IMG/VR virus record: IMGVR_UViG_3300043409_000909
Location: 1-20,951 of that record
Strand: one strand, 5' to 3'
DNA length: 20,951 bases
Origin: a virus
In this document: positions 3,146-20,950 of the stretch, piece after piece
Layout of the letters: every line of letters starts with the position of its first letter
How positions within the stretch are numbered: position 1 is the first letter of the stretch
The notes under the pieces: model-generated
What the model saw: the letters and a program-made list of their open reading frames with translations, nothing else
Database searches by the model: none
What the model was told of the DNA's origin: nothing
Position numbers and translations under genes: made by a program

Positions 3146-4837
3146 TTATCCTAATGGTGGACGAAGTGGTGCAGGAGCAATAGGAATTGGAGGGAATGTA
3201 ATAGAAGAACATTCAGTTAAACACAAGAATTCTTCAAATGCACATGCTACATTACATCCTTCTAACCATCTATTAACATCAGTTTCAAAACTTGAAATGC
3301 TATCAGTAGTTACAATTTCCAACAAATAACGGTCATTGTCAAATGTACCAGAAGGGTTATTGAAACGTGGAACACTGTGCAACAAGTAATATTTGTCATA
3401 CAAACCGTTACGGTTAATTGCAGTAATCATTTGGTTTCCTTGAGTAATCTCACGAATACGGATATCATTATGCAAGAAGTTTTGACGGTAAGATTCAGAA
3501 AGAATCAACTCACGCAAAACTGTTTCTCCAAGACCTTGAGCTTGAGTACCAGCACATTCAATAACTGCACAAAGTCCTGTAAATTCACATGGATCACCTG
3601 TGTAATCAACCTCAGATGGGTAGATTTTAACTGGTTGTTTCTCATAGAAATCAGAGATTTGGAATGAACAGTCACCAAACTTAGTATCAACATAAGCTCC
3701 ATTAAAGATCATACCTGCGCATGTTCCATCAACATGTCCTGTAGATACGTAGTTATCCCAAGTATTTCCACCTAATAAAGCAAGATCAGCAGCAGAAGTT
3801 CCTGGTTGATACCAAAGAATACCAGTTTCATCTTGAATTACAATTTGGATGAATGGTCTTGTAAGCTCATAACGCAACAAAGCATTAGCCCAAAGAATCA
3901 TTACTTCAGTTGAATCAACTGCAGAAGGAGCAATAGGGTCTGTACAACATCCTGTGTAAGCTTCAGCAGTGTAGTATGCATTGTGATTCAAGAAACGAAG
4001 TGCTGGAGAACCTTTAATATCTACACGTAGGTAGTAAGTCTCACCACAAATGAACTCTTTGCAACAATTACCTGGAGCAACAACGTAATTAGTTCCTGCA
4101 GCATTTACTGTAGATATTGTAATAACTGCAAGAGTACCTGGTGCACCACCATTCCAATCAACAATTGTTACAGTATCACCTACTTCATAACCTTTACCAA
4201 GGCTAGCAATACCAGTAATTGTAGGTACGCCTAGAGCAACAGTGATAAACAAAGTAAGTCCAGTACCTGTTCCAGATGTAGTTGTAGTTGTAGTAAGTTC
4301 TGGAATAATTGTATTAGTATACCCTACTCCTGGAGTTGTAATTGGTACTCCGCTAACACCACCACCAGCAGTCCAGAAAGTTGAACCAACGTGAACTACT
4401 TCATTTTGTGGTAAACACTGAGAAACATGGTAAAATTGTTGTACATAACGTGGGTTGATCATCTTAGACTTGTTAGTCTCAGTATAACCTCCTGCAAATG
4501 GACCAATTTTGTCATTTGAGTAGATTGCAGATCCAGCTACATAAAGATTGCAGCACTCTTCTGGTCTATTCAAAGACAAGTTAGTTTTAGCATCAAACAA
4601 TCCAAAGTATCCACTATTCCAAGTAGATAATGAAGAAGGTCCTGAGTAAGGATAAGTTTCTTGATACTGAGACATTACATTCAACATGTATGTAGGTACA
4701 GCTGATGTACGCAAATAACCGTCCGAGGTATTAATTGTGTAAGTTGCACCAGTTACAGGATCTGTAAATACCTGATCATCATAAGTATTTCCTGTTCCCA
4801 GGAAAGTCTTTTTAAACGCGTGATTAAAATAAGCCAT
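3146..4837 (-). CDS. Major virion structural protein with inserted beta domain, 563 aa (tail tube/sheath candidate)
   Basis: This is the second long structural protein after the capsid gene. The N-terminal part (1-160) carries NRPEECCNLYVAGSAIY, and the C-terminal part (about 255-540) carries the motif RELILSESYRQN and ends in a Pro-rich tail (PPIPIAPAPLRPPLG). Residues about 163-254 look like an insertion: a Gly/Thr-rich beta module with the paired motifs GVGYTN and GKGYEVGDTVTI, a pattern common in phage structural proteins as an accessory repeat. CC pairs flank this insert (95-96 and 258-259). It has its own candidate promoter upstream and a strong terminator downstream, suggesting very high expression. 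Position after the connector suggests tail tube, sheath or another major tail component; sequence alone does not decide. The ATG at 4837 follows an A-rich leader. Confidence 0.8.
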   Translation of the reverse strand: MAYFNHAFKKTFLGTGNTYDDQVFTDPVTGATYTINTSDGYLRTSAVPTYMLNVMSQYQETYPYSGPSSLSTWNSGYFGLFDAKTNLSLNRPEECCNLYVAGSAIYSNDKIGPFAGGYTETNKSKMINPRYVQQFYHVSQCLPQNEVVHVGSTFWTAGGGVSGVPITTPGVGYTNTIIPELTTTTTTSGTGTGLTLFITVALGVPTITGIASLGKGYEVGDTVTIVDWNGGAPGTLAVITISTVNAAGTNYVVAPGNCCKEFICGETYYLRVDIKGSPALRFLNHNAYYTAEAYTGCCTDPIAPSAVDSTEVMILWANALLRYELTRPFIQIVIQDETGILWYQPGTSAADLALLGGNTWDNYVSTGHVDGTCAGMIFNGAYVDTKFGDCSFQISDFYEKQPVKIYPSEVDYTGDPCEFTGLCAVIECAGTQAQGLGETVLRELILSESYRQNFLHNDIRIREITQGNQMITAINRNGLYDKYYLLHSVPRFNNPSGTFDNDRYLLEIVTTDSISSFETDVNRWLEGCNVACAFEEFLCLTECSSITFPPIPIAPAPLRPPLG

Positions 4838-4901: not shown

Positions 4902-5420
4902 TTATTTTAAGAAAAGTAATTTATATTTTGTTGAATTGATTGAATCTTTCACTAAATCAAGATTATTAACAATCTCAGAGTAAGGCATCATACCTTGTAA
5001 TTTGTTAATTGAGTTATATATATCTCTAAGATATGCAACACCATCTGCCACAGTATCCAATGTTCTAATAGGCATATCAGTATAAGTTAATATTTTCTCA
5101 GCAGTACCTTGGTATCCCTCTACTAGTGTATCCGCATGATCATGAAGACCATCATAAAATGCATTAAGTGCCGTGTGTGCTGCGTATGAGCCATCTCCTG
5201 TAATTTTTAAATGGAGCTTATGAAAACTGATAGCAGCATTCATCATCTCTGTTGCACATGCTGCTGTCATAGTATCTAATGAGCTACCACCAACTCCTGT
5301 ATTAGGAGTAGGTTGTGCCTTAGCTGGCTCACTCTTAGGTTGAGTTACTATAGGTTGAGGTCTACTAACTGTTTTAGGTAGATCCACATCTCTTTTTAAC
5401 ATTCTTGAAGGTTGTTGCAT
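4902..5420 (-). CDS. Dps/ferritin-like protein, 172 aa (DUF5856-like)
   Basis: Residues 1-48 are a Pro/Gln/Lys-rich linker-like leader. From 49 the protein is all-helical. Residues H70, H82, D97 and E101 fall in HKLHLK, AAHTALN and DHADTLVE. Their spacing (12, 15 and 4) is exactly that of the Dps ferroxidase ligands (E. coli Dps H51, H63, D78, E82 as I recall them). The further Dps Asp at +4 is Asn86 here. The pattern FHKLHLK...AAH...YDGLHDHADTLVEGYQG also resembles the phage family DUF5856, recalled from memory. Unlike cellular Dps it is encoded among virion genes, 5 bp after the connector candidate. It may bind iron, or may keep only the four-helix fold as a structural part. The N-terminal tail could anchor it to a partner or to DNA. 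Confidence 0.7.
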   Translation of the reverse strand: MQQPSRMLKRDVDLPKTVSRPQPIVTQPKSEPAKAQPTPNTGVGGSSLDTMTAACATEMMNAAISFHKLHLKITGDGSYAAHTALNAFYDGLHDHADTLVEGYQGTAEKILTYTDMPIRTLDTVADGVAYLRDIYNSINKLQGMMPYSEIVNNLDLVKDSINSTKYKLLFLK

Positions 5421-5425
5421 TGTTT

Positions 5426-6127
5426 CTAATTATTTAATTCTACTGAGTTTTCTGCAATTTGCATTTGGTTTACTGATTCTATGTCTCCAGCTAGTATTTT
5501 GACAGTTTCATCTACAATAAGTTCTACTATATCATCTTTGAATTCTGATTCTACTTCAACAGTAGATACTAGATTTGTATAAGGATCTACAACACCAATG
5601 ATCTGGATTCTTCTAGGTTGTTTGTAATAAGAGAATCTAACATTTTCTACAGTAAATATATTGTTAGTATAGATTCTTATATTCCCTCCTTTAAGAGTAG
5701 AGAAAGTTTCACCCCACTCAAAGTTAGGTTGTTTGTTTTTATCTCTTAGTAATTCATCTACATTAGCTTCTTCAGCTAGATATATGACCAAGCGTATTTT
5801 GTTATTACAGCAATCATTTACAGCGTTAGCTGCAATTCTTTTCCACTCCATATAGTCTTCTGGTAGAGGTGCTGTAAAGTAAAGATCTTTTTCAGTAAAT
5901 GTGACCGGGATTTCTCTTAGTAAAATATTGAGATCATCCATTCTTCTTTTAGATTGTTCATCCCCTGTTTGTTTTTGATTGGTACCATGCAACTGTCTGC
6001 GCGTCCAATCAACGGCACCTTTATTAAAGGCTTCAACAATTTGCCAGGCTTCTATGTTGTCATAGTCGTTACTGTCAAGCTTGTTAAGTCTCTCCTTTAC
6101 TTTAAGTTGTATAGTAATATTGTTCAT
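5426..6127 (-). CDS. Head-tail connector/adaptor candidate, 233 aa
   Basis: The protein begins with helical segments (residues 1-70, including EAWQIVEAFNKGAVDWTRRQ). A beta-rich middle follows (about 75-185, with LPEDYMEWKRIAANA and FTVENVRFSYYKQPRRIQI). It ends in a helix with the motif FKDDIVELIVDETVKILAGD. Helix, beta barrel, then a terminal helix, located after capsid genes and before tail genes, fits a head-completion or ring/adaptor protein. This is inference from architecture and position; no signature residue was recognised. The start lies 2 bp after the stop of the preceding 70-aa gene and the gene is followed 5 bp later by the Dps-like gene, so all three are co-transcribed. Confidence 0.65.
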   Translation of the reverse strand: MNNITIQLKVKERLNKLDSNDYDNIEAWQIVEAFNKGAVDWTRRQLHGTNQKQTGDEQSKRRMDDLNILLREIPVTFTEKDLYFTAPLPEDYMEWKRIAANAVNDCCNNKIRLVIYLAEEANVDELLRDKNKQPNFEWGETFSTLKGGNIRIYTNNIFTVENVRFSYYKQPRRIQIIGVVDPYTNLVSTVEVESEFKDDIVELIVDETVKILAGDIESVNQMQIAENSVELNN

Positions 6128-6129
6128 CT

Positions 6130-6342
6130 TTATTTAGCTTTACCTTTTACTTTCTTTAAGTTTGGATTTGCTTTTTTAGCAGCAGAAGACGCTTTACGGC
6201 TTGATGAAGCTAAGATAGCTCCAGCAGCTTCCATACTTACTCCGGATTTTTTAGCAATGCTGCTTTGTGCAGCTTTAAATCCCATTCCTTTTGTGGCTCC
6301 TCCGGCTTTATACATTCCGCCACACTTCATACATCTAGCCAT
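6130..6342 (-). CDS. Small basic Ala/Ser/Lys-rich protein, 70 aa
   Basis: The protein starts MARCMKCGGMYKAGG, with one CxxC pair near the N-terminus and a Gly-rich stretch. A helical Ala/Ser middle follows (MEAAGAILASSSRKASSAAKKA), and it ends in a Lys-rich tail (KKVKGKAK). It is the last of seven consecutive tiny genes between the 337-aa gene and the connector. The composition recalls histone-H1-like or DNA-condensing tails, but no fold or family can be assigned. A packaged virion protein is one possibility. Confidence 0.7.
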   Translation of the reverse strand: MARCMKCGGMYKAGGATKGMGFKAAQSSIAKKSGVSMEAAGAILASSSRKASSAAKKANPNLKKVKGKAK

Positions 6343-6357
6343 AGTATAATATTTAAA

Positions 6358-6630
6358 TTAACAATTCCATTTTCTTAATGCAAGAGTTTTTCTTGTAGGT
6401 TCTCCATTTGGTTTTTTAGCAGGTCCAGGCATCCCAGACATTCTAGCACAAAAACTTTTTCTTCTCTTTGCATCTTTACTATCTGGGTCTAGCTTAGACG
6501 GCTTTGTTGTTACAGCTGTCTGCAATTTAGATCCCGGATTTTCTCTTCTATAGGAAGCAACACCTTTTGCGTTAAGACCACCTTTAGGATTCTTTCCTTC
6601 TTTTCTAGTCCAAGCTGCCGTCTTTGCCAT
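6358..6630 (-). CDS. Small basic protein, 90 aa (DUF6321-like)
   Basis: The protein has a distinctive conserved pattern: AAWTRKEGKNPKGGLNAKG (residues 4-22), RKSFCARMSGMPGP (about 58-71) and a C-terminal TRKTLALRKWNC. I recall this combination as the phage-associated domain of unknown function DUF6321; this should be confirmed by a profile search. Two Cys and several Trp/Arg suggest a compact nucleic-acid- or protein-binding fold. Its ATG overlaps the stop of the preceding 40-aa gene by one base (TAATG), showing translational coupling within the tiny-gene array. Confidence 0.8.
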   Translation of the reverse strand: MAKTAAWTRKEGKNPKGGLNAKGVASYRRENPGSKLQTAVTTKPSKLDPDSKDAKRRKSFCARMSGMPGPAKKPNGEPTRKTLALRKWNC

Positions 6631-6752
6631 TACTTTTTCTTTTTAGAATTAGGCTTCTTCATGTTACGTCCTATATTCATACCTGCTTGAAAAGATTTTT
6701 TAACCTTTTCTCCACACTCTGACTTCTTTGTGTTTTTACTAGATGTTGCCAT
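6630..6752 (-). CDS. Tiny Lys-rich protein, 40 aa
   Basis: Translation gives MATSSKNTKKSECGEK... ending in NSKKKK, with 13 lysines in 40 residues, a single Cys and the segment FQAGMNIGRNMKKP. The reading frame is exactly fitted between its neighbours: the ATG lies 2 bp after the stop of the 50-aa gene and its TAA overlaps the next ATG by one base. That tight fit is the main support for a gene this short. The function is unknown; the strongly basic character matches its neighbours. Confidence 0.65.
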   Translation of the reverse strand: MATSSKNTKKSECGEKVKKSFQAGMNIGRNMKKPNSKKKK

Positions 6753-6754
6753 GA

Positions 6755-6907
6755 CTATTTCTTTTTAGTAGTAGCTTTAATTTTCTTCTCTTGTTTAAGC
6801 ATTTCCTTAGTAGGTTTCTTACCAGAACCTTTTGCAGCACGGATGTTATCCCAAAGACCTCTTTGAGATGTACTACCGTCTTTTCGCTTTAACATTTCCT
6901 TTGCCAT
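6755..6907 (-). CDS. Tiny basic protein, 50 aa
   Basis: I use the ATG at 6907 (MAKEMLKRKDGSTSQRG...) rather than an upstream ATG at 6979, because the extended N-terminus would be hydrophobic, unlike its neighbours, and would lie deep inside the preceding gene. The protein contains the segment SQRGLWDNIRAAKGSGKKPT and ends in a Lys-rich tail (KKIKATTKKK). I recall similar short phage proteins with the GLWDNIRA core, but no named function. Its 5' end overlaps the 93-aa gene by 35 bp in another frame. Confidence 0.7.
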   Translation of the reverse strand: MAKEMLKRKDGSTSQRGLWDNIRAAKGSGKKPTKEMLKQEKKIKATTKKK

Positions 6908-7154
6908 TGCCTTTACCTTTATATTTATACTCAGGATTGTCTTTATGCCACTTTTTAGTAGCAGCAACACCTTGAGCAACTGTTTTAGCTCTACCTTTAG
7001 CAGTAAGATCTATTGTATCCCACTGACCTTTATCTTTGGTAGGATGGTTGACCATTACGTGGCCAACCTTTCCTTCACCATTTTTTGTGGTCTTTTTATA
7101 GACTACATGCTTTTCGCCACCAGCAGTAACTTTTACTTTAGCTGACTTTGCCAT
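6873..7154 (-). CDS. Small basic protein, 93 aa
   Basis: The protein starts MAKSAKVKVTAGG, has a probable beta segment (EKHVVYKKTT), then VMVNHPTKDKGQWDTIDLTAK and a helical AKTVAQGVAATKKWHKDNP. It ends in a Gly/Lys-rich, probably disordered tail (KYKGKGNGKGNVKAKRR). The start follows the stop of the 73-aa gene directly (overlap of one base at 7154), so the two are translationally coupled. No family was recognised. The compact core plus basic tail would suit binding to packaged DNA or to an acidic capsid surface. Confidence 0.75.
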   Translation of the reverse strand: MAKSAKVKVTAGGEKHVVYKKTTKNGEGKVGHVMVNHPTKDKGQWDTIDLTAKGRAKTVAQGVAATKKWHKDNPEYKYKGKGNGKGNVKAKRR

Positions 7155-7375
7155 TATTTCTTAGTAAATGTGCTAAGCACATTCATTTGATCCTGCGCTA
7201 GTTTTTTAACATCATTCATCATCTTAGTATCTTTGCGGATTTCATCTGCTCTTTTCAAAGTACTTAATGCTGATTCAATTTCCCATTTTCTCATGTCTCC
7301 TTTAGGAGCAGAAGAAATAGTTACTCCAATAGTTTTTTTGGCTGGAGCTTTACTTGCTGTTTTCTTAATTGCCAT
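7154..7375 (-). CDS. Small protein with basic N-terminus and helical C-terminus, 73 aa
   Basis: The N-terminal 20 residues (MAIKKTASKAPAKKTIGVTI) are Lys/Ala/Pro-rich, like histone H1 or bacterial DNA-condensing tails. Residues about 30-70 form an amphipathic helical region (WEIESALSTLKRADEIRKDT and a second helix). It lies just after the hairpin at 7403-7430 and starts the overlapping part of the tiny-gene array. The ATG at 7375 follows an A-rich leader. The function is unknown. Confidence 0.75.
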   Translation of the reverse strand: MAIKKTASKAPAKKTIGVTISSAPKGDMRKWEIESALSTLKRADEIRKDTKMMNDVKKLAQDQMNVLSTFTKK

Positions 7376-8716: not shown

Positions 8717-10336
8717 TTAGAATGATCCACCAGTAATTGGGTTTCTCATAACAATTTTCAAGACTTTAGTTGGATCTTTAACCCAAATAGCCGGCATTGT
8801 TTGTGACATGAATACACGGTATCCATTGAACTGTCCTGAAGACTGGAAGCCTTGAGTACGTCCCATGTAATCCATTGTACCATTTTGATACCACCATTTC
8901 AACTGATTATCCCAAGACAATTTCAACAAGAAGATGTTGTCATTTGTGTTATCTGTGATATCAAAGATAATGAATGAATAAGAAGACAATGGGTTACCAT
9001 CAATGATTGGGTTTTCAATATCATTAGTGTGGATGTTGTCAAACGCTGGGTTCAATACAAACTTCACGTTAGCCAAGAAAGGAATCACATAACTAGTGTA
9101 TGCAAATCCAAATCCTAGATCCATACCTTTGTTAGTGATTGCTCCGATGTCCGCAGCAAGGATATTCAAACCTGATGCAACTGCCTCACGTCTGATAGCC
9201 TCATTTACTAGACGCATACCACCCATTCCTGTTTGTACAATCAATTGACGTTTAGGATCTGGACCTTGGAACTCCACACGACCAGCGTAGAAGTTGTAAA
9301 GCTCAGAACGGAACAATTCAAGATTGAAACTTGATTTGTTATAAACTCTTTTGAATGAACTATCTAATTGTTTCCAAAGACCTACTGACAAACGGATATC
9401 ATCTGGACCATCTTGCTTAACACGACCACCATGACCCCACATAAGGTAAGTCTCAATATCCGTTGCAATTTTAGTCAAGTGAGCTGCTTCCAATGAAGTC
9501 AAGAATGTACGGCTCAAATCACCATTGGCAACTGCGCGCTTAACATAATCTTTACCCATTGTTGCAACCATATCCTCAATTTTAGAAATTGATGGATCCA
9601 TTTGCTTGTCAAAGTTTCTCCAGATCTCAGTTACAGGAACTGTACCATCTGCATTCATTCCACCTTTAATTTGCATGTCTGCACGAGAAGAGATAGAATA
9701 GTGTACGTGAGCTTCAGCTCCACCTACGAAGTTGTAGAACTCACGGAATCCAGACTTAGTTTGGATATCAGAGAAACGCTCACCGTATTCTCCACGTGCA
9801 GATGACTTACGGAATACCTTAGTACCATTAGCCAAATAACGGTTATCCAAGAAACGGTAGTTGTCATTGTTTACCAATGAAACAGTATAGATGAAACCAT
9901 CTCCGATAGGAAGAATGTCATCTTCTGCAGAAACAATCATCTCCGCACCGTTGTACTTGTCATAAGTAATGATATCACCATGTCCGAACTCACGTTTGTT
10001 CAACTTGAGTTTGAAGCTAGTTCCATCAATTCCCTTAACTACATTTGAAGGCTCAATGTCTTCAATGATGTAAGGTAAATCCTGTGAAATAGGAGTTTGC
10101 CATTTGTACTCACCGCGAACATTGTCCACCATGATTACGTTTTTACCACCAAAGGATGACATTTGGTAAAGGGGCATTTCAACTTTTTGAGTCATAGCCC
10201 AAATGTCTACAGGACCCATATCCATAGGTTCTGCATCCTTCAGCATGTTTGCTAAGTGGTATGAATCCACGTGAGAAGACGCATTGTATTGCGTATCACG
10301 GAGGAATATACCATTGTTTAAAACTGGAGTTGCCAT
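8717..10336 (-). CDS. Major capsid protein, 539 aa
   Basis: Assigned by position and size: it directly follows terminase, portal and a scaffold-like protein, is of capsid length, and ends in a strong terminator. The protein is mixed alpha/beta. Its opening residues (FLRDTQYNASSHVDSYHLANML) would form an N-terminal arm. A long helix-rich middle follows (about 240-330), and the end is beta-rich (DPTKVLKIVMRNPITGG). An HK97-type fold is the expectation for tailed phages but has no short signature to point to. Codons look more GC-ending (for example AAC, TTC, GTA/GTT mixtures) than in neighbours, as is common in highly expressed genes. The leader before the ATG is repeated ACAA units. Confidence 0.8.
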   Translation of the reverse strand: MATPVLNNGIFLRDTQYNASSHVDSYHLANMLKDAEPMDMGPVDIWAMTQKVEMPLYQMSSFGGKNVIMVDNVRGEYKWQTPISQDLPYIIEDIEPSNVVKGIDGTSFKLKLNKREFGHGDIITYDKYNGAEMIVSAEDDILPIGDGFIYTVSLVNNDNYRFLDNRYLANGTKVFRKSSARGEYGERFSDIQTKSGFREFYNFVGGAEAHVHYSISSRADMQIKGGMNADGTVPVTEIWRNFDKQMDPSISKIEDMVATMGKDYVKRAVANGDLSRTFLTSLEAAHLTKIATDIETYLMWGHGGRVKQDGPDDIRLSVGLWKQLDSSFKRVYNKSSFNLELFRSELYNFYAGRVEFQGPDPKRQLIVQTGMGGMRLVNEAIRREAVASGLNILAADIGAITNKGMDLGFGFAYTSYVIPFLANVKFVLNPAFDNIHTNDIENPIIDGNPLSSYSFIIFDITDNTNDNIFLLKLSWDNQLKWWYQNGTMDYMGRTQGFQSSGQFNGYRVFMSQTMPAIWVKDPTKVLKIVMRNPITGGSF

Positions 10337-11746: not shown

Positions 11747-14509
11747 TTATTTTTTCTTTTGGTTTTTAGGTTTTTCAATCTTAATATCAAACTTGTTTTT
11801 GTTTTCTTGAGCTATTTGAAGTTGTTTATCAGCTATATCTTTTTGAGCTTGGATTTTTTCTCTTTCAATAGAAGCTTTTTGTTGGAACTGGGTAGTTCTA
11901 TTTATTTCTTTTTCTCTTTGAAGACTCATAGTATCTCGGTATTGCTCAGTTTTTTGAATTGAATCAAGAGCATCTAAGTAATCTGATTGAGAATTTTGAT
12001 TCATATCCTGCATGGCTCCATACCCTGCAGATTTAATTTCAGCAACAAGCATGTCTTTTCTGCGATCTTTTTCAGCTTCTTGAGCCTTGAAGTCTCTATC
12101 CATTTGTTTTTCTTGTTGTATAGCTTCAAGATCCATTTGTTTCATCTTCTCTTCATGCTGCATTTGAGCTTGACCTTCTTGTTTTTGTTTAACCTCAATT
12201 GACTTAAGAACATTATTCAATGTACCCATTGAATCTGATTGGATTATGTTACCAAGATCATAGATTGATGCTCCAGCTGTATTATTACTTACAGCAAGTT
12301 GTTTCATCTGTTCTATGATTGATCTATGATTAGCTTTGGTATTACAATATACATGCACGTCTCTCATAAGAAGATCAGTACCATTAATTTCAAAGTTTAC
12401 GCGTTCTTCTGGTGTAGTAGAAACTTGCATGCGGATTGAAGGTTTTGTAGAAGCATAATACTGAGCTAAGTCAGTACGCATTTGGTGTACCCGTGGCATT
12501 AAGTGATCAGAGTGTTGTACAAAATACATTTCCGTTTGTGCATATGATCCGGCTACTGCTTGTTCTATTCCAGTAGCTGTATCTGTTTGTCCAATTTGCA
12601 TACCCATTCTTTGTGGGTTCACACCAATTACTTCATATGCTTGTTGCTTAAAGAAGTTAGCCAACTGTATACGTGAAAGCATACGCTGTGTTTGCTCAAG
12701 GTTTAATACTTGGAAATGGTTAAAATTCAGTGCGTTTTCCGTATTAGCTATTGAAGTATCTAAAGGAAGCATCCCAAAATTCTTCATAGCCACGTATGCT
12801 TTAGCCAAGTTTCCTTTACCCCAGTCTTCTCCTAATGAGTGTTGTGGTAGAGTATTTTGATCTAGCATAATCACAGTACCAATCTCATCTACTAGGATAT
12901 CCGCAATCTGATTATTCACAAGATTATATGCTACCTGAAATGGTTTCATTAAATCTACTAGAGATACAGAACGTGTGTTACGATCAGTAAATACTCTTCC
13001 TTCTACTGGAAGCTTACACCCGTACATTGTATTATCACCTTTGAATTGGAACTTCATTGGTTTAATGTGGTTCTGCATTATTCCCATATAGATTGGATTA
13101 ATACCACCCGGGTTATTCATACCCCAGAATGAAGGCATGTTAGGTCCAATCTTAATTCCACCCCAAACTTGATTAATCCAAATCCATTCAATGTGTTCAC
13201 CAAAGACTAGATTATCTTTGGATTTATTTCTCATAAATGATGTATTATAAACAGGTTTGTCTGTTACAACATATGTTTCATCAATTATTTCATTAATTAC
13301 CTCACCGTCCTCACTGATTTTTGTAAGATGACCTAACTTGCGCTGAGATTTCCAGTAACATGTGGTTACACGCAATAAGTGTGCGCTACCCATATCAAAG
13401 TAGTCTTCTGATTCACCCAGGATCCAGTTAATGATATCTCCACCATTGTAAATAAAGTTAGTATACATTGATGTGAACTGACGGTATTCTAATGAAGGAC
13501 GGTTTGTATTCCAATCATGGGATTTAGTAGCATCATAGTATGAACCATCATTTTGGTATCCTTGTATAGGATAGCCGGCAGATCTTACAGGATAGATTGC
13601 TTCAAGGGATTCTAATTGGTCTTGACTCATTACCCAACCATACTTATCAATTACATCGGCAACTGACATCATCTCAATTTTACCAACCCAGTTACCCTGG
13701 GAAATATATCTTACATCTGGTGACTTATGATAAAAGGTAAGAACTGGATTCCATAATTCAATGTTATAATCATCTTCAAGCATTTGGAAATGCCAAAACT
13801 CACGGTCAGTGATAAGCATTTCTTTAAAGGCACGTTCTTCAAGCTCATCCATTTTGAATCTTTCCTCATCAATGATGTGCTGTTTAGAAGCCCATTGCTC
13901 ACATAATGTACTATAGCTTTTATTGTAAAAGTCTTGGATCTCTGGTAGAGATTTAACATTCTCAGGACTGATTTGTTGTTGAAATTCTTCACTATTTGGA
14001 TCAGCTCCCATTTCAAGCATATTTGAAATAAGTTTTTGCTCAGCTTGTTTTACAAGAACATCTTCAATATCTGCAAGTTTGTTTGTAAGAATTTCATTAT
14101 AGGTATACTCATCTACTGCGCGAAATGTAACTCTCTTATTTCTTTTAGCAAATTCTGATGTGAGTACTTTAACTACATTTGGAACAATAGGATAAAATTT
14201 AAGCTCTAATGCTGACGCATCTTCAGCTGCTAAAGTTTCTACTATATCTCTGTACTCATTATCAGCTTCAGCAACATAATCTGTTCTGTCAATTAAACCT
14301 TCAGCAAGCTTATAGTTTTTCATCAACCTGCGTGCATTTCTACGTATCTGTTTGAGTCCATTCCATTCTAGCCAGTCTAAGTTCCATGCTGCCCATTCAG
14401 TATTTTTTTCTTTTTCAGGTAAAAACTGAAGTGGTTGAGTGATACTAGCAAGACGGTTGTATTCCGCCTTTTTACCACTCTTAAGTTGCATTGCATTATA
14501 TACTTCCAT
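11747..14509 (-). CDS. Portal protein, 920 aa
   Basis: The gene overlaps the terminase stop by one base (TAATG at 14509-14511), the usual terminase-portal arrangement. The central part (about residues 80-680) is mixed alpha/beta, with an Asp/Asn-rich and aromatic surface (LEDDYNIELWNPVLTFYHKS) and later NHIKPMKFQFKGDN and LMKPFQVAYNLVNNQ. From about residue 740 to the end it is a long Gln/Glu/Lys-rich coiled coil (QHEEKMKQMDLEAIQQEKQM and similar), as expected for an extended barrel or internal helical domain. At 920 aa it is longer than most portals, similar to the large portals of Bacteroidota podoviruses. The dodecameric portal forms the vertex for DNA entry and contacts the terminase. The assignment is by position and architecture. 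Confidence 0.8.
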   Translation of the reverse strand: MEVYNAMQLKSGKKAEYNRLASITQPLQFLPEKEKNTEWAAWNLDWLEWNGLKQIRRNARRLMKNYKLAEGLIDRTDYVAEADNEYRDIVETLAAEDASALELKFYPIVPNVVKVLTSEFAKRNKRVTFRAVDEYTYNEILTNKLADIEDVLVKQAEQKLISNMLEMGADPNSEEFQQQISPENVKSLPEIQDFYNKSYSTLCEQWASKQHIIDEERFKMDELEERAFKEMLITDREFWHFQMLEDDYNIELWNPVLTFYHKSPDVRYISQGNWVGKIEMMSVADVIDKYGWVMSQDQLESLEAIYPVRSAGYPIQGYQNDGSYYDATKSHDWNTNRPSLEYRQFTSMYTNFIYNGGDIINWILGESEDYFDMGSAHLLRVTTCYWKSQRKLGHLTKISEDGEVINEIIDETYVVTDKPVYNTSFMRNKSKDNLVFGEHIEWIWINQVWGGIKIGPNMPSFWGMNNPGGINPIYMGIMQNHIKPMKFQFKGDNTMYGCKLPVEGRVFTDRNTRSVSLVDLMKPFQVAYNLVNNQIADILVDEIGTVIMLDQNTLPQHSLGEDWGKGNLAKAYVAMKNFGMLPLDTSIANTENALNFNHFQVLNLEQTQRMLSRIQLANFFKQQAYEVIGVNPQRMGMQIGQTDTATGIEQAVAGSYAQTEMYFVQHSDHLMPRVHQMRTDLAQYYASTKPSIRMQVSTTPEERVNFEINGTDLLMRDVHVYCNTKANHRSIIEQMKQLAVSNNTAGASIYDLGNIIQSDSMGTLNNVLKSIEVKQKQEGQAQMQHEEKMKQMDLEAIQQEKQMDRDFKAQEAEKDRRKDMLVAEIKSAGYGAMQDMNQNSQSDYLDALDSIQKTEQYRDTMSLQREKEINRTTQFQQKASIEREKIQAQKDIADKQLQIAQENKNKFDIKIEKPKNQKKK

Positions 14510-16722
14510 TATCTTATATTTCTAAATGGGTTTTTAGTAAACCTTTTTTGATCTTTATGGGACTTATTATTTCCTATATGTCTAAAAGGGCTGTTCTTTA
14601 ATTTATACAAATTTTCTGACTTTTCCAAGTTATTGGAAGCTTTATCTACTCGTTTAGAATATCCAACATTGGCTTGCTGCACCTTTACAAATCCAATTAA
14701 AGCAGCAAGAGCTACCAATCTATCCACGTTGACACCAGCTTGATAGTTTTGCATTTCTATCAAAGCCATGTAATCAGGTAGTCTTTCAATACCAAACTTT
14801 TTATTTATTATTGTGCCATCCTCTTCAGTACCATGATCAATAACTTCTTTTAACCACTCAATTAAATAACTTAGTAAGTGATTTTTAAATAGTGTTCCTG
14901 TATTCTTCCAACCATAATCTGAGTACACAGTTTTATTAGATCCTGCCTCTTTAAGGAATACAATTTGATTCTTTGGTATTAGATACTTTTGTTTGTTCTT
15001 TTCAATCATGTGGCGGATAAATAGAGAGATGTTATTCTCTACCAATGTCCATGCATTGTAAAATTCAATGAGCATTTCTAATCTTTCATGCGTTTCATTG
15101 ATATCATCAAAACGCCCGCACCAGGAAGCTACTACACCTTCGCCTTCTAGATAGTTTTCTATTCTACCGTCTTCATGCACTTTAGTAACCTCTACTGCAT
15201 TTTTGTAAATGTAAATAGAACATAGAGATTCTGATGTTGTTGTCTTACCTTCACTGACTGGATCCACTGATCCAATATAAGTTGCCCAGCGTGCAGTAGG
15301 ATCAGGTCTTTCATAAATAACCACTACTCCAGACTTATCTAGTCTTTTCTTATCTACAGGGAATTCAGTTATAGGAATCTTTCTTGATCTTTCAGCAAAG
15401 ACTTTTCCATTTACATCTCTTTTTAGATCAACATATTCTATCGCATATTCTTTGTCTTCAATTCTTTTTTTCTGAGCTCCTACTAGTACAAGTGGGAATT
15501 TAGAATCTTCACGAAAATCAAATGCTTCTTTGATATTAATTGGATGCTGTGATATACGCAGCTTGTATTTTTCTGGAGTAAGATCTCTTTCCCATTCTGT
15601 ACGGATCTGATAAATCATCTCTAATGCTTTTTCTACTTCTGAATTACCATACTTATCTATACATGGAGGCATCATCCATTGTTCTGGTATAAAGAGTCCC
15701 GTTCTTCCAAAGGCCCAGTTCTCATCCATTAGGTTATGTTCTACAGCATAAATACCACTGGCATCTGGATGTAATGTAAAATCTTTAAGTGGATTACATT
15801 GTGATAAATCTCCTACTGATCCAGCTGCAATAAACATACCTGTAGTAATTTGACCTGATTGCATGGCCGGGCGAATGTACTCAAAAGTAATATCCATCTT
15901 GGGAGCAATGCCGGCCTCTTCATAGAAGAAGTAAGTACATGGACCCCCTACACCTTTTGTATCAGATTGCTCAAAAGACATACCTTGTAACATACCTTTA
16001 AGACCTCTTTCCATCTTACGACCATTGTCTACAACCTCAATCTTTTGCTGCCAAGTTAAAACTTTACCTGGATTCATTGGACGGTACCATGCTGTCTTAG
16101 AGTTTAAGAATGCTTTATACTCATCTAAGAATTTCCATGATCCTTCTAGGCCAATGTAATCTTTAAGTGATGCACCAAGCTTTAAGATGACTCCTGGTTC
16201 AAACCAAATTTGATTGATGAACTTACCCATGTGGTAATAAGAGGAAGCCATTTGACGTTTCTTAAGTAGACTAGAATGTTTATAATGTAATTCAGCTAGT
16301 ATCTCATATAGAGCCATATGATACTGCCCATCGCGCACATCCGGGAAATCAAATCTCTTTTTCTGCTTATCATAGATTGGAAGAAAATTCAACCACATGT
16401 AGTAATCCCGTGGTAAATACCATGTCTTACCGTTGTTTATAAAGATGCAACCTACTCTGCATTTATTCTTTTGATCATCCCAGTATTTTCTAAAGTCTTT
16501 GCTTTTAAATGGATGCATGCAATATACCTCTCCATTCTTTTTAAAGAGTCTTGCTTGCTCATTAAAAACAAAAGCAGTTTCATCAAACTCATACTGACCA
16601 GGTTCTTTGAACAAGGGTAATAAAAAGTCAATAAACTCTTCTCGGGTAGTAAATGATCTTTCCTCCCACACCCCTTCATTCCATACTGGAATAACTTCTA
16701 TATCATTTTCTTCTGTAAACAT
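14509..16722 (-). CDS. terL: Large terminase subunit, 737 aa
   Basis: The N-terminal ATPase has a Walker A-like segment KKRQMASS (residues 154-161), lacking the standard GKS/T and resembling the deviant form with Lys at the start of the loop. Walker B is TYFFYEEAG (263-271, Glu268-Glu269). A coupling motif follows at about 298-305 (IAAGSVGD). The C-terminal RNase H-fold nuclease shows the expected acids: Asp487 in YIGSVDPVSEG, Glu562 in WTLVENN, and Asp650 or Asp667 in DYMALIE/NVDRLVALA. The protein cuts and pumps phage DNA into the prohead at the portal. The start overlaps the upstream stop by one base (TAATG), and the gene overlaps portal in the same way. The C-terminal 50 residues are Lys/Asn-rich and likely flexible. 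Confidence 0.9.
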   Translation of the reverse strand: MFTEENDIEVIPVWNEGVWEERSFTTREEFIDFLLPLFKEPGQYEFDETAFVFNEQARLFKKNGEVYCMHPFKSKDFRKYWDDQKNKCRVGCIFINNGKTWYLPRDYYMWLNFLPIYDKQKKRFDFPDVRDGQYHMALYEILAELHYKHSSLLKKRQMASSYYHMGKFINQIWFEPGVILKLGASLKDYIGLEGSWKFLDEYKAFLNSKTAWYRPMNPGKVLTWQQKIEVVDNGRKMERGLKGMLQGMSFEQSDTKGVGGPCTYFFYEEAGIAPKMDITFEYIRPAMQSGQITTGMFIAAGSVGDLSQCNPLKDFTLHPDASGIYAVEHNLMDENWAFGRTGLFIPEQWMMPPCIDKYGNSEVEKALEMIYQIRTEWERDLTPEKYKLRISQHPINIKEAFDFREDSKFPLVLVGAQKKRIEDKEYAIEYVDLKRDVNGKVFAERSRKIPITEFPVDKKRLDKSGVVVIYERPDPTARWATYIGSVDPVSEGKTTTSESLCSIYIYKNAVEVTKVHEDGRIENYLEGEGVVASWCGRFDDINETHERLEMLIEFYNAWTLVENNISLFIRHMIEKNKQKYLIPKNQIVFLKEAGSNKTVYSDYGWKNTGTLFKNHLLSYLIEWLKEVIDHGTEEDGTIINKKFGIERLPDYMALIEMQNYQAGVNVDRLVALAALIGFVKVQQANVGYSKRVDKASNNLEKSENLYKLKNSPFRHIGNNKSHKDQKRFTKNPFRNIR

Positions 16723-19873: not shown

Positions 19874-20335
19874 TTATTTATAAGGTACATAAGATGTTCC
19901 TTTACCTGACTTAACAGCTTTAAGGATTTGCTTGCGCTGCTTACCTGTAGACTCATAAGATACATGTACCCAATCAGGATTACTATCTGTACCAAACTCC
20001 CAGATCATTTGATCAAAGCTTAGGTTGTCTTTAATAAAATCAAAGATTTGCTTATTAGTAACTGTAGTACCATCCATATCAATATCAATAGCTTCACCTG
20101 TACAGTGCTGTGAACTTAAAGCACCACCTACTGCTGTGTTTAGCTCTTTACTACGGTATCCTGATGAAAGGATAATAGGAACTCCAAAGTGTTCTCTAAT
20201 AGGCTGGAATACTTTCTCAGCTAATAGCTTAAAGTTCTCAATGTGTTCAGGTGTTGGCATATTGCTAATACCTTTTCTTTTAGCAGTTTCCGATCTCATC
20301 ACTTCTGCTAATGCTAAATTTTTACTTAGTTGCAT
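19874..20335 (-). CDS. M15-family peptidase (D-Ala-D-Ala carboxypeptidase/endolysin type), 153 aa
   Basis: The Peptidase M15A pattern is visible: SGYRSKELNTAVGG (residues 58-71), then His77 and Asp84 in SQHCTGEAIDID as zinc ligands, and the final ligand His124 in DWVHVSYE. At 153 aa it is a single-domain enzyme without an added cell-wall-binding domain or signal peptide. Members cleave peptide cross-links or stem peptides of peptidoglycan; the exact bond (L-Ala-D-Glu or D-Ala-D-Ala) cannot be read from sequence. It follows the lysozyme gene after 5 bp, so glycan-strand and peptide cleavage are produced together. An alternative role is a virion-associated peptidoglycan hydrolase. Confidence 0.88.
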   Translation of the reverse strand: MQLSKNLALAEVMRSETAKRKGISNMPTPEHIENFKLLAEKVFQPIREHFGVPIILSSGYRSKELNTAVGGALSSQHCTGEAIDIDMDGTTVTNKQIFDFIKDNLSFDQMIWEFGTDSNPDWVHVSYESTGKQRKQILKAVKSGKGTSYVPYK

Positions 20336-20340
20336 GTTGT

Positions 20341-20799
20341 TTATTTTTTAAAGTACAAGTCTGCTTCAGCTTCTCTGCGTCTAACAAGACCTTTTAATGT
20401 TTTACCTCCTGCTTTTACCCACTTCATGAATTCTAATCTGATAGATTCATCTTCAGGATTAGCATTTACTTTCTTAAGTAAAGTAGAAGATTTTAAATTT
20501 GCTGGACCTAGATTGTATGCAAATGATACCAATGCATCAAACTGGTTCTGTGTAATAGTGTCTACGCAGTAACTATCTACGTATTTCTCAAAACTCACAA
20601 GCATACTAGCTAATAGCTCTGTTGCTTGTTCTTCAGTTATAGTAGCATCAGACATTGCTACCTTCTTACCATTAGGATAGAAGGTTGCTCCGTATCCAAT
20701 TGTAGGAATAGCTGCAGGACATTTGTAAGGAGCTCCTCTGAACCCTTCAAATGATTTGATCATATCAATTCCTGCTTTCCCCGTCTTTGTTATCTTCAT
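20341..20799 (-). CDS. GH24 lysozyme (T4/P22-lysozyme-like endolysin), 152 aa
   Basis: The ATG at 20799 (MKITKTGKAG...) is chosen; an upstream ATG at 20859 would add a Lys/Gln-rich extension overlapping the previous gene. The catalytic pattern is E18 in SFEGFRG, Cys27 at +9 and Thr33 at +15, in PTIGYGAT: exactly the E-x8-D/C-x5-T spacing of GH24 enzymes, with Cys in place of Asp. The downstream NQFDALVSFAYNLG and GLVRRREAEADLY motifs are also typical. It cleaves the glycan strands of peptidoglycan. No signal-arrest N-terminus is seen, so it probably needs a holin; the partial membrane protein upstream is a candidate. Its start overlaps that gene by 35 bp. Confidence 0.92.
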   Translation of the reverse strand: MKITKTGKAGIDMIKSFEGFRGAPYKCPAAIPTIGYGATFYPNGKKVAMSDATITEEQATELLASMLVSFEKYVDSYCVDTITQNQFDALVSFAYNLGPANLKSSTLLKKVNANPEDESIRLEFMKWVKAGGKTLKGLVRRREAEADLYFKK

Positions 20800-20950
20800 C
20801 TTTGTTCTTTTTTTTAAGTGACAGAATTCTACCTGCTGTTGTAATACCAAATGCTCCAAGTGTAAGGATCATAAACCCATCAAAGATAAATTCTTTTATA
20901 ATAAGTTCATTACCTAAAATGCCTGTAATTACGTCTACTATTAAAATAAA
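20765..20950 (-). CDS. Holin-like membrane protein, C-terminal 61 aa (5' end outside window)
   Basis: An open frame enters from the window edge and ends at TGA 20765-20767. The visible part is hydrophobic (FILIVDVITGILG, then FDGFMILTLGAFGITTAG), with a Lys/Asp-rich cytoplasmic-type tail (SLKKKNKDEDNKDGES). Two hydrophobic segments with a short charged turn (NELIIKE), followed by a charged tail, resemble small phage holins. Overlapping the lysozyme start by 35 bp strengthens the holin reading. The N-terminus is not present, so total length and the number of membrane segments are unknown. Confidence 0.6.
   Translation of the reverse strand, partial: FILIVDVITGILGNELIIKEFIFDGFMILTLGAFGITTAGRILSLKKKNKDEDNKDGESRN

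Follow-up and report, generated by a model that had tools for sequence, protein, structure and literature searches.

A Dps-Like Gene in a Phage Structural Operon

Why should a gene whose product shows the ligand spacing of a Dps ferroxidase center lie among the connector and tail genes of a phage? The question is raised by an open reading frame (ORF) in IMG/VR record IMGVR_UViG_3300043409_000909, analyzed here over positions 1–20,951 (20,951 nucleotides, hereafter the window). A first-pass annotation had suggested that its product may form a ferritin-like shell or ring in the virion, protecting the packaged DNA, carrying iron (possibly as bait for siderophore receptors) or using the fold structurally. 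According to the Ferrojan-horse proposal, which is still a hypothesis, phage particles carry iron on purpose.

The ORF (4902–5420) is real: it lies on the minus strand, starts with ATG and encodes 172 amino acids. The window is part of the genome of a crAss-like phage, a member of Crassvirales or close kin: its capsid (Pfam), portal (PHROG) and tail-ring (fold) proteins are all of crAss type, and its terminase was identified by PHROG. The genes relevant here are:

3146..4837, minus strand: downstream flank gene, 563 aa, after the slot gene in 75/75 loci; weak PHROG structural matches
4902..5420, minus strand: Dps-like protein, DUF5856, 172 aa, slot gene; PF19174 1.4e-13, PHROG 858 2e-17, four helices by AF2
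5426..6127, minus strand: crAss-type tail-barrel ring protein, 233 aa, upstream flank of the slot; AF2 match, hhalign, PHROG 29507
8717..10336, minus strand: crAss-type major capsid protein; Pfam PF23898 1e-29
11747..14509, minus strand: portal protein; PHROG 6547 5.7e-80
14509..16722, minus strand: terminase large subunit; PHROG 6681 9.7e-58

The placement among connector and tail genes made in the first-pass annotation held, as the upstream neighbor of the ORF encodes a crAss-type tail ring. The AF2 model of this neighbor matches the phicrAss001 tail barrel rings 7qoj_D/E/F (E-values 2.9e-11 to 1.4e-9, TM about 0.7), best of all 7qoj_D (2.9e-11, TM 0.73). Its profile also matches crAss001 R3/R4-type proteins (hhalign E-value 4.4e-9), and PHROG 29507, to which it belongs, is described as virion structural protein. 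The ORF starts 5 bases downstream of the ring gene. In all 75 loci which show the three genes, the ring gene, the gene behind it (the slot gene) and the downstream flank gene, whose product is probably a virion protein, were found in this order on the same strand, with a median gap of 2 nt between the ring and slot genes (75/75 in order).

Family and Predicted Fold

Membership of the protein in DUF5856, as suggested in the first-pass annotation, was borne out by a PF19174 score of 52.1 bits against a cut-off of 34.6. The protein also belongs to PHROG 858, annotated as 'starvation-inducible transcriptional regulator' (2e-17). The Ferritin/Dps family PF00210 gave no match to it, DUF5856 being the only Pfam family found at E-values up to 1. 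A profile was needed to match Dps in PDB, because the single-sequence search gave a best E-value of only 0.028. With a profile of 57 relatives, solved Dps structures were matched, HP-NAP first (2.9e-4), followed by MrgA (7e-4) and the Listeria innocua protein (9e-3), and H70, H82, D97 and E101 were aligned to H25, H37, D52 and E56 of HP-NAP. The similarity of the window protein to bacterial Dps is, judged by these profiles, remote but significant.

A four-helix bundle had been set as a test of the Dps reading beforehand, and such a bundle was predicted by AF2, with helices at residues 47–72, 78–107, 124–144 and 148–169 and pLDDT >90 across most of residues 50–169. Both VIA-align and Foldseek placed the model with Dps. 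VIA-align gave Z scores of 16.6 to MsDps2 and 15.0 to Escherichia coli Dps (rmsd 2.2–2.4 over 127 residues; 2.2 over 127 residues for the MsDps2 superposition), and in Foldseek Dps proteins came out on top with modest E-values (6.5e-3). The window protein is thus predicted to be a Dps-like four-helix bundle.

Conserved Dps-Type Ligands

H70, H82, D97 and E101 are, as first noticed, 12, 15 and 4 residues apart, which is the Dps spacing, and residue 86 (four residues after H82) is Asn in place of the Asp expected in Dps. The corresponding codons are:

5211..5213, minus strand: His70, Dps ligand 1, helix A; invariant in all relatives aligned
5175..5177, minus strand: His82, Dps ligand 2, helix B; invariant
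5163..5165, minus strand: Asn86, site of the missing Dps ligand; Gly/Asn in 114/114 slot relatives
5130..5132, minus strand: Asp97, Dps ligand 4; invariant
5118..5120, minus strand: Glu101, Dps ligand 5; invariant

All four ligands are invariant in the 114 full-length slot relatives (114/114) and also in the aligned relatives from T4-type phages (RB49 rI.-1), Ackermannviridae, small podoviruses and a 634-kb phage, as well as in crAss001 gp7; His67 is nearly invariant in addition. The residue at H+4 is Gly in 65 and Asn in 49 members of the slot clade (n = 114), Glu in T4-type phages and Asp in crAss001 gp7. Since Gly or Asn occurs throughout the slot clade, Asn86 is no peculiarity of the window phage. 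The pattern H-x11-H-x14-D-x3-E was absent from the other ORFs of the fetched loci (0/3,693; 602,000 aa) and appeared in 37 of 200,000 shuffles of the window protein; a chance origin of the spacing was rejected on these counts.

The metal site of Dps sits between two subunits, leaving the ligands exposed in the monomer, so surface-facing ligands in a monomer model would not refute the Dps reading. Compared with Dps/HP-NAP mini-ferritins, the window protein shares the predicted subunit fold, the H-12-H-15-D-4-E spacing and the profile match to solved Dps, but one ligand and a PF00210 match are absent, and a basic DNA-binding tail does not appear to be conserved.

An Exchangeable Slot behind the Tail-Ring Gene

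To survey the slot, loci were gathered by similarity to the ring protein and not by the Dps-like protein. Among 80 ring-fetched loci, 45 have DUF5856 right behind the ring, whereas several others have a different protein there and several have none. Behind 174 distinct rings we found the Dps-like protein in 114 cases, a ferritin in 41 and neither in 19, proportions which reflect the way of collecting the loci and should not be read as population frequencies.

Sequence comparison indicates that the alternative occupant is a canonical FtnA-type bacterial ferritin. Slot ferritins match PF00210 at 2e-20 to 3e-25, their best solved-structure match is a ferritin (6e-22), and nine of nine FtnA metal ligands are kept in 39/39 proteins. 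FtnA-type non-haem ferritins, which occupy the same slot with the same tag (see below) in related phages and keep all metal ligands, differ from the Dps-like occupant in forming a separate branch of the superfamily and in being normally 24-mers; slot ferritins differ from FtnA in having 30–64 residues, tag included, before the first ligand.

On the ring tree, a quick tree with some long-branched rows, 34 changes of slot state are needed, and the well-supported branches alone force at least 15 changes for the Dps-like label and at least 16 for the ferritin label. The ring protein of the window is closest (96% identical) to that of a ferritin carrier (L199/L279). At the DNA level, the window and L279 are collinear at about 90% up to codon 10 of the slot gene, and homology resumes (78.6%) 25 bases past the stop codon. 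A single-gene swap was likewise seen between L068 and L295, the flanks of which are 95% identical before and 91% identical after the slot gene, and further swap pairs are L127 or L137 versus L291, L261 versus L316, and L267 versus L237. Collinear flanks around the slot gene in several pairs indicate that one gene has been exchanged, repeatedly. The median identity of the Dps-like protein (77%) and of the ring (56%) is biased by locus fetching and was not used as evidence.

The two families exclude each other in the genomes searched. Each of four near-complete genomes has one tagged slot protein, from only one of the two families. No DUF5856 match over the cut-off was found in six ferritin genomes, no PF00210 match in one Dps-like genome, and neither over the cut-off in seven empty-slot records; a second method gave the same picture for two of the six ferritin genomes and for a further two Dps-like genomes. 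PF00210 also had no match in crAss001, cr106_1, Lbo-JY46 and the other records searched first.

Some loci show other arrangements. In L318 (9543–10507), a distant crAss-like phage with a terminase 25% identical, the stretch between portal and capsid genes contains DUF5856 and ferritin genes in tandem and, after them, a gene that looks GroES-like by eye; the tandem is a further link of both families to a single task. Leader-bearing ferritins without L-K-R are encoded a few kb upstream of terL in L300 (9926–10549), L308 (7268–7834) and L309 (587–1162), which represent another crAss-like lineage (terminase about 24% identical). The slot of L230 (4733–5476) holds a 247-aa Ser/Thr/Asn-rich, basic, low-complexity protein that is not a ferritin. 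In the Leptolyngbya phage Lbo-JY46 (L189:14590–17176), the order of capsid, ring and 631-aa genes is kept with the slot empty, so that the module reaches a cyanobacterial phage.

A Common N-Terminal Tag

The proteins of both slot families share a short N-terminal tag with the consensus R-x-L-K-R, for example MQQPSRMLKRD (window) and METKSRLLKRN in Dps-like proteins, and MEKNRMLKRPE and MESKPRTLKRPE in ferritins. In the window, the tag and the linker behind it are encoded as follows:

5391..5405, minus strand: tag R-M-L-K-R, residues 6–10, of which L-K-R counts; DNA homology to the ferritin sister ends at 5391
5283..5390, minus strand: Pro/Gln/Lys-rich linker, residues 11–46; pLDDT <50 for most, length and charge variable

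Scored as strict L-K-R within the first 16 residues, the tag is present in 96 of 115 distinct slot Dps-like proteins and 26 of 39 slot ferritins. In the same search, it occurred in none of 19 ferritins off this slot, and it was found in 18 of 4,409 other ORFs (0.4%). Most slot proteins without strict L-K-R have near variants; 13 of the 39 ferritins are without the strict tag. Apart from two chance-like ORFs, no protein but the slot protein is clearly tagged in four near-complete genomes, which leaves a role of the tag as a general cargo signal unsupported. A tag confined to the slot occupants suggests that these share a partner, in the simplest case a virion protein encoded in the same operon.

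The tag could also be non-functional, merely a stretch of homology at which recombination exchanges cassettes, and in several pairs DNA homology does end inside or right after the tag codons. However, in L068 and L295 homology stops at the start codon, yet both have the tag, written in different codons. L, K and R are each encoded by several codons, and the tag persists across the deep tree. The tag as a mere recombination relic is disfavored by the varied codons and by the end of homology in L068/L295, and we consider this reading improbable.

The leader is Pro/Gln/Lys-rich as first described, but about 46 residues long rather than 48, and it is predicted to be disordered (AF2 pLDDT <50 over residues 1–37 and 39–44). 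Its net charge is +4 in the window protein, +3 at the median and –2 in L054. This range gives no clear support to a function as DNA-binding tail and, because the positive charge is not conserved, weakens the DNA-protecting Dps role that had been considered for the protein.

Relatives of the DUF5856 Family

Two distant relatives of the window protein, both confirmed here as DUF5856, have been detected in virions. LIMEstone1 ORF78 was found by mass spectrometry with 3 unique peptides and 28% coverage (PMC3296691), and Sajous1 gp217 was represented by 10 spectra from CsCl-purified virions and matched ferritin by Phyre2 (PMC10892097). A ferritin-like protein in a phage particle therefore has precedent. 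Together with T4-type rI.-1, these proteins belong to the same family by profile and have the same four invariant ligands, but are without the R-x-L-K-R tag, the Pro-rich linker and the crAss-type ring neighbor. The location of the gene varies: in ctEw122-type podoviruses DUF5856 follows the portal gene, and T4-type rI.-1 sits outside the structural region.

Within the same viral order, phicrAss001 gp7 (L197:4551–5000; NC_049977 4551–5000), annotated as putative DpsA, is DUF5856-like and has the full five-ligand Dps set. It differs from the slot proteins in having Asp at H+4, in being untagged, in scoring below the DUF5856 cut-off and in its location in a tRNA cluster upstream of terL, outside the structural operon. 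Its kinship with the slot family follows from the match of both to DUF5856; an hhalign comparison of the crAss-type profile with the single gp7 sequence gave a probability of 2.7% and was unusable. The protein is not named in the consulted passages of the two crAss001 virion papers.

Our literature search gave no match for DUF5856, nor for crAss001 together with DpsA. The folds are known, and it has been suggested before that a phage virion may contain a ferritin-like protein. An exchangeable, tagged ferritin slot in a phage structural operon was not found within the limited literature searched.

Possible Function of the Slot Protein

Most probably, the slot protein is an accessory metal protein of the ferritin type that carries a tag, is produced together with the virion and is possibly loaded into it. 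In environmental crAss-like phages, the position behind the tail-ring gene would be an accessory slot whose occupants can be exchanged, the window gene being one of them. The function selected at this slot would be ferritin-type binding and oxidation of metal, most likely iron, because either a Dps-like DUF5856 protein or a canonical FtnA-type ferritin, each of them a four-helix bundle, fills it; we regard a ferritin-type metal function as highly probable. That one ferritin branch can take the place of another while each keeps its catalytic residues suggests selection for ferritin chemistry and not for a particular surface, and the patchy occurrence of slot proteins among close relatives suggests an accessory rather than an assembly function.

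The Dps-like form would be expected to dimerize, with H70 and H82 of one subunit and D97 and E101 of the other holding the metal. A second iron site would probably be weak or lost, since the Dps ligand at H+4 is absent. Docking of the protein by its tag is a realistic possibility, just short of what we would favor; the R-x-L-K-R tag on its flexible linker would then most likely bind the ring, portal or capsid. The docked protein might be a virion cargo or decoration which oxidizes or holds iron, and the phage could benefit in that its genome, whether packaged or just entered into the cell, would be protected against Fenton damage. We slightly favor an association of the slot protein with the virion. 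We also lean, cautiously, toward the explanation as a whole (an exchangeable metal protein with an accessory role, produced along with the virion, docked by a tag and handling iron), because its core, which comprises all but the docking and the iron, does not depend on every detail. Points against it are the location of crAss001 gp7 and rI.-1 outside structural regions, the missing Dps ligand and the degenerate state of some tags.

A similar mechanism is known from encapsulin-ferritin systems (EncFtn, Flp, IMEF), in which a ferritin cargo is held on an HK97-fold shell via a short peptide. The phage tag differs in being N-terminal, the slot adjoins a tail-ring gene, and the phage docking is putative. 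It is possible, as a tentative proposal, that the ferritin is loaded into or onto the particle by an N-terminal docking peptide as a viral counterpart of encapsulin-ferritin, with different lineages plugging in different families.

Alternatively, the protein might be a late-expressed cytosolic ferritin, which stays in the infected cell and lowers free iron and peroxide damage during packaging, the tag then having a part in stability or in some other host-side function. Dps and FtnA proteins are mostly cytosolic, and crAss001 gp7 is encoded outside the structural operon. In addition, gut phages encode Dps and Mn-catalase, for which a gain in oxidative tolerance during infection has been proposed (PMC8008677). 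A cytosolic role fits poorly with the invariable position right behind the ring gene (75/75 loci in order, median gap 2 nt), with a tag common to two ferritin families at the slot and absent from ferritins elsewhere, and with the detection of DUF5856 relatives in virions (PMC3296691, PMC10892097); we consider it rather unlikely, although clearly worth attention.

Two readings place the protein in the particle for other purposes. As iron bait, an iron-loaded ferritin on the tail would exploit host iron-uptake receptors for entry, which suits a slot behind a tail-ring gene. Such siderophore-receptor bait, also raised in the first-pass annotation, had already been published as ferritin-mediated entry in a study of Vi01-like phages, which have a DUF5856 relative (PMC10892097). 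These phages, however, plated about equally on a tonB feoB mutant and on the wild type (PMC10892097), so that the idea found no support in the mutant hosts, and relatives of the window phage without any slot protein exist; this reading is very unlikely. The least likely reading of all is that the bundle serves as a connector or decoration subunit whose ligands hold a structural metal only. The gene does lie among connector genes, and invariant ligands could make a structural metal site, but an assembly part is unlikely to be dispensable (slot empty in 19/174) or to be replaced by a protein sharing mainly ferritin chemistry (different ferritin family in 41/174). Purely structural use of the fold, as initially considered, is thereby weakened, whereas the predicted Dps/ferritin-like fold and the conserved ferroxidase-type ligand set in a connector/tail operon are supported.

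For the preferred explanation, an accessory metal protein made with the virion, the slot suggests that environmental crAss-like phages handle iron in making, or in being, a particle. The swap of two tagged ferritin families separates selection for ferritin chemistry from reuse of the fold as a building block, and the slot provides closely matched natural sets with a Dps-like protein, a ferritin or neither. If the tag indeed docks the protein to the particle, it would also be an example of a small, natural signal for cargo loading in a virus of the HK97 type.

Other Genes of the Window

The only bacterial genome match was one Sphingomonadaceae MAG contig, which is probably a stray phage contig and settles no host. 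Between a 351-aa gene and the ring gene, the window encodes several small Lys-rich proteins (6130–7375), the number of which varies among relatives and which are possibly internal head proteins. A cysteine-rich protein of at least 770 aa with repeated Cys-containing modules, cut by the window end (2–2311), is probably a fiber or surface protein. Adjoining peptidase M15-like and lysozyme-like genes, identified by eye at 19874–20859, are likely a lysis pair.
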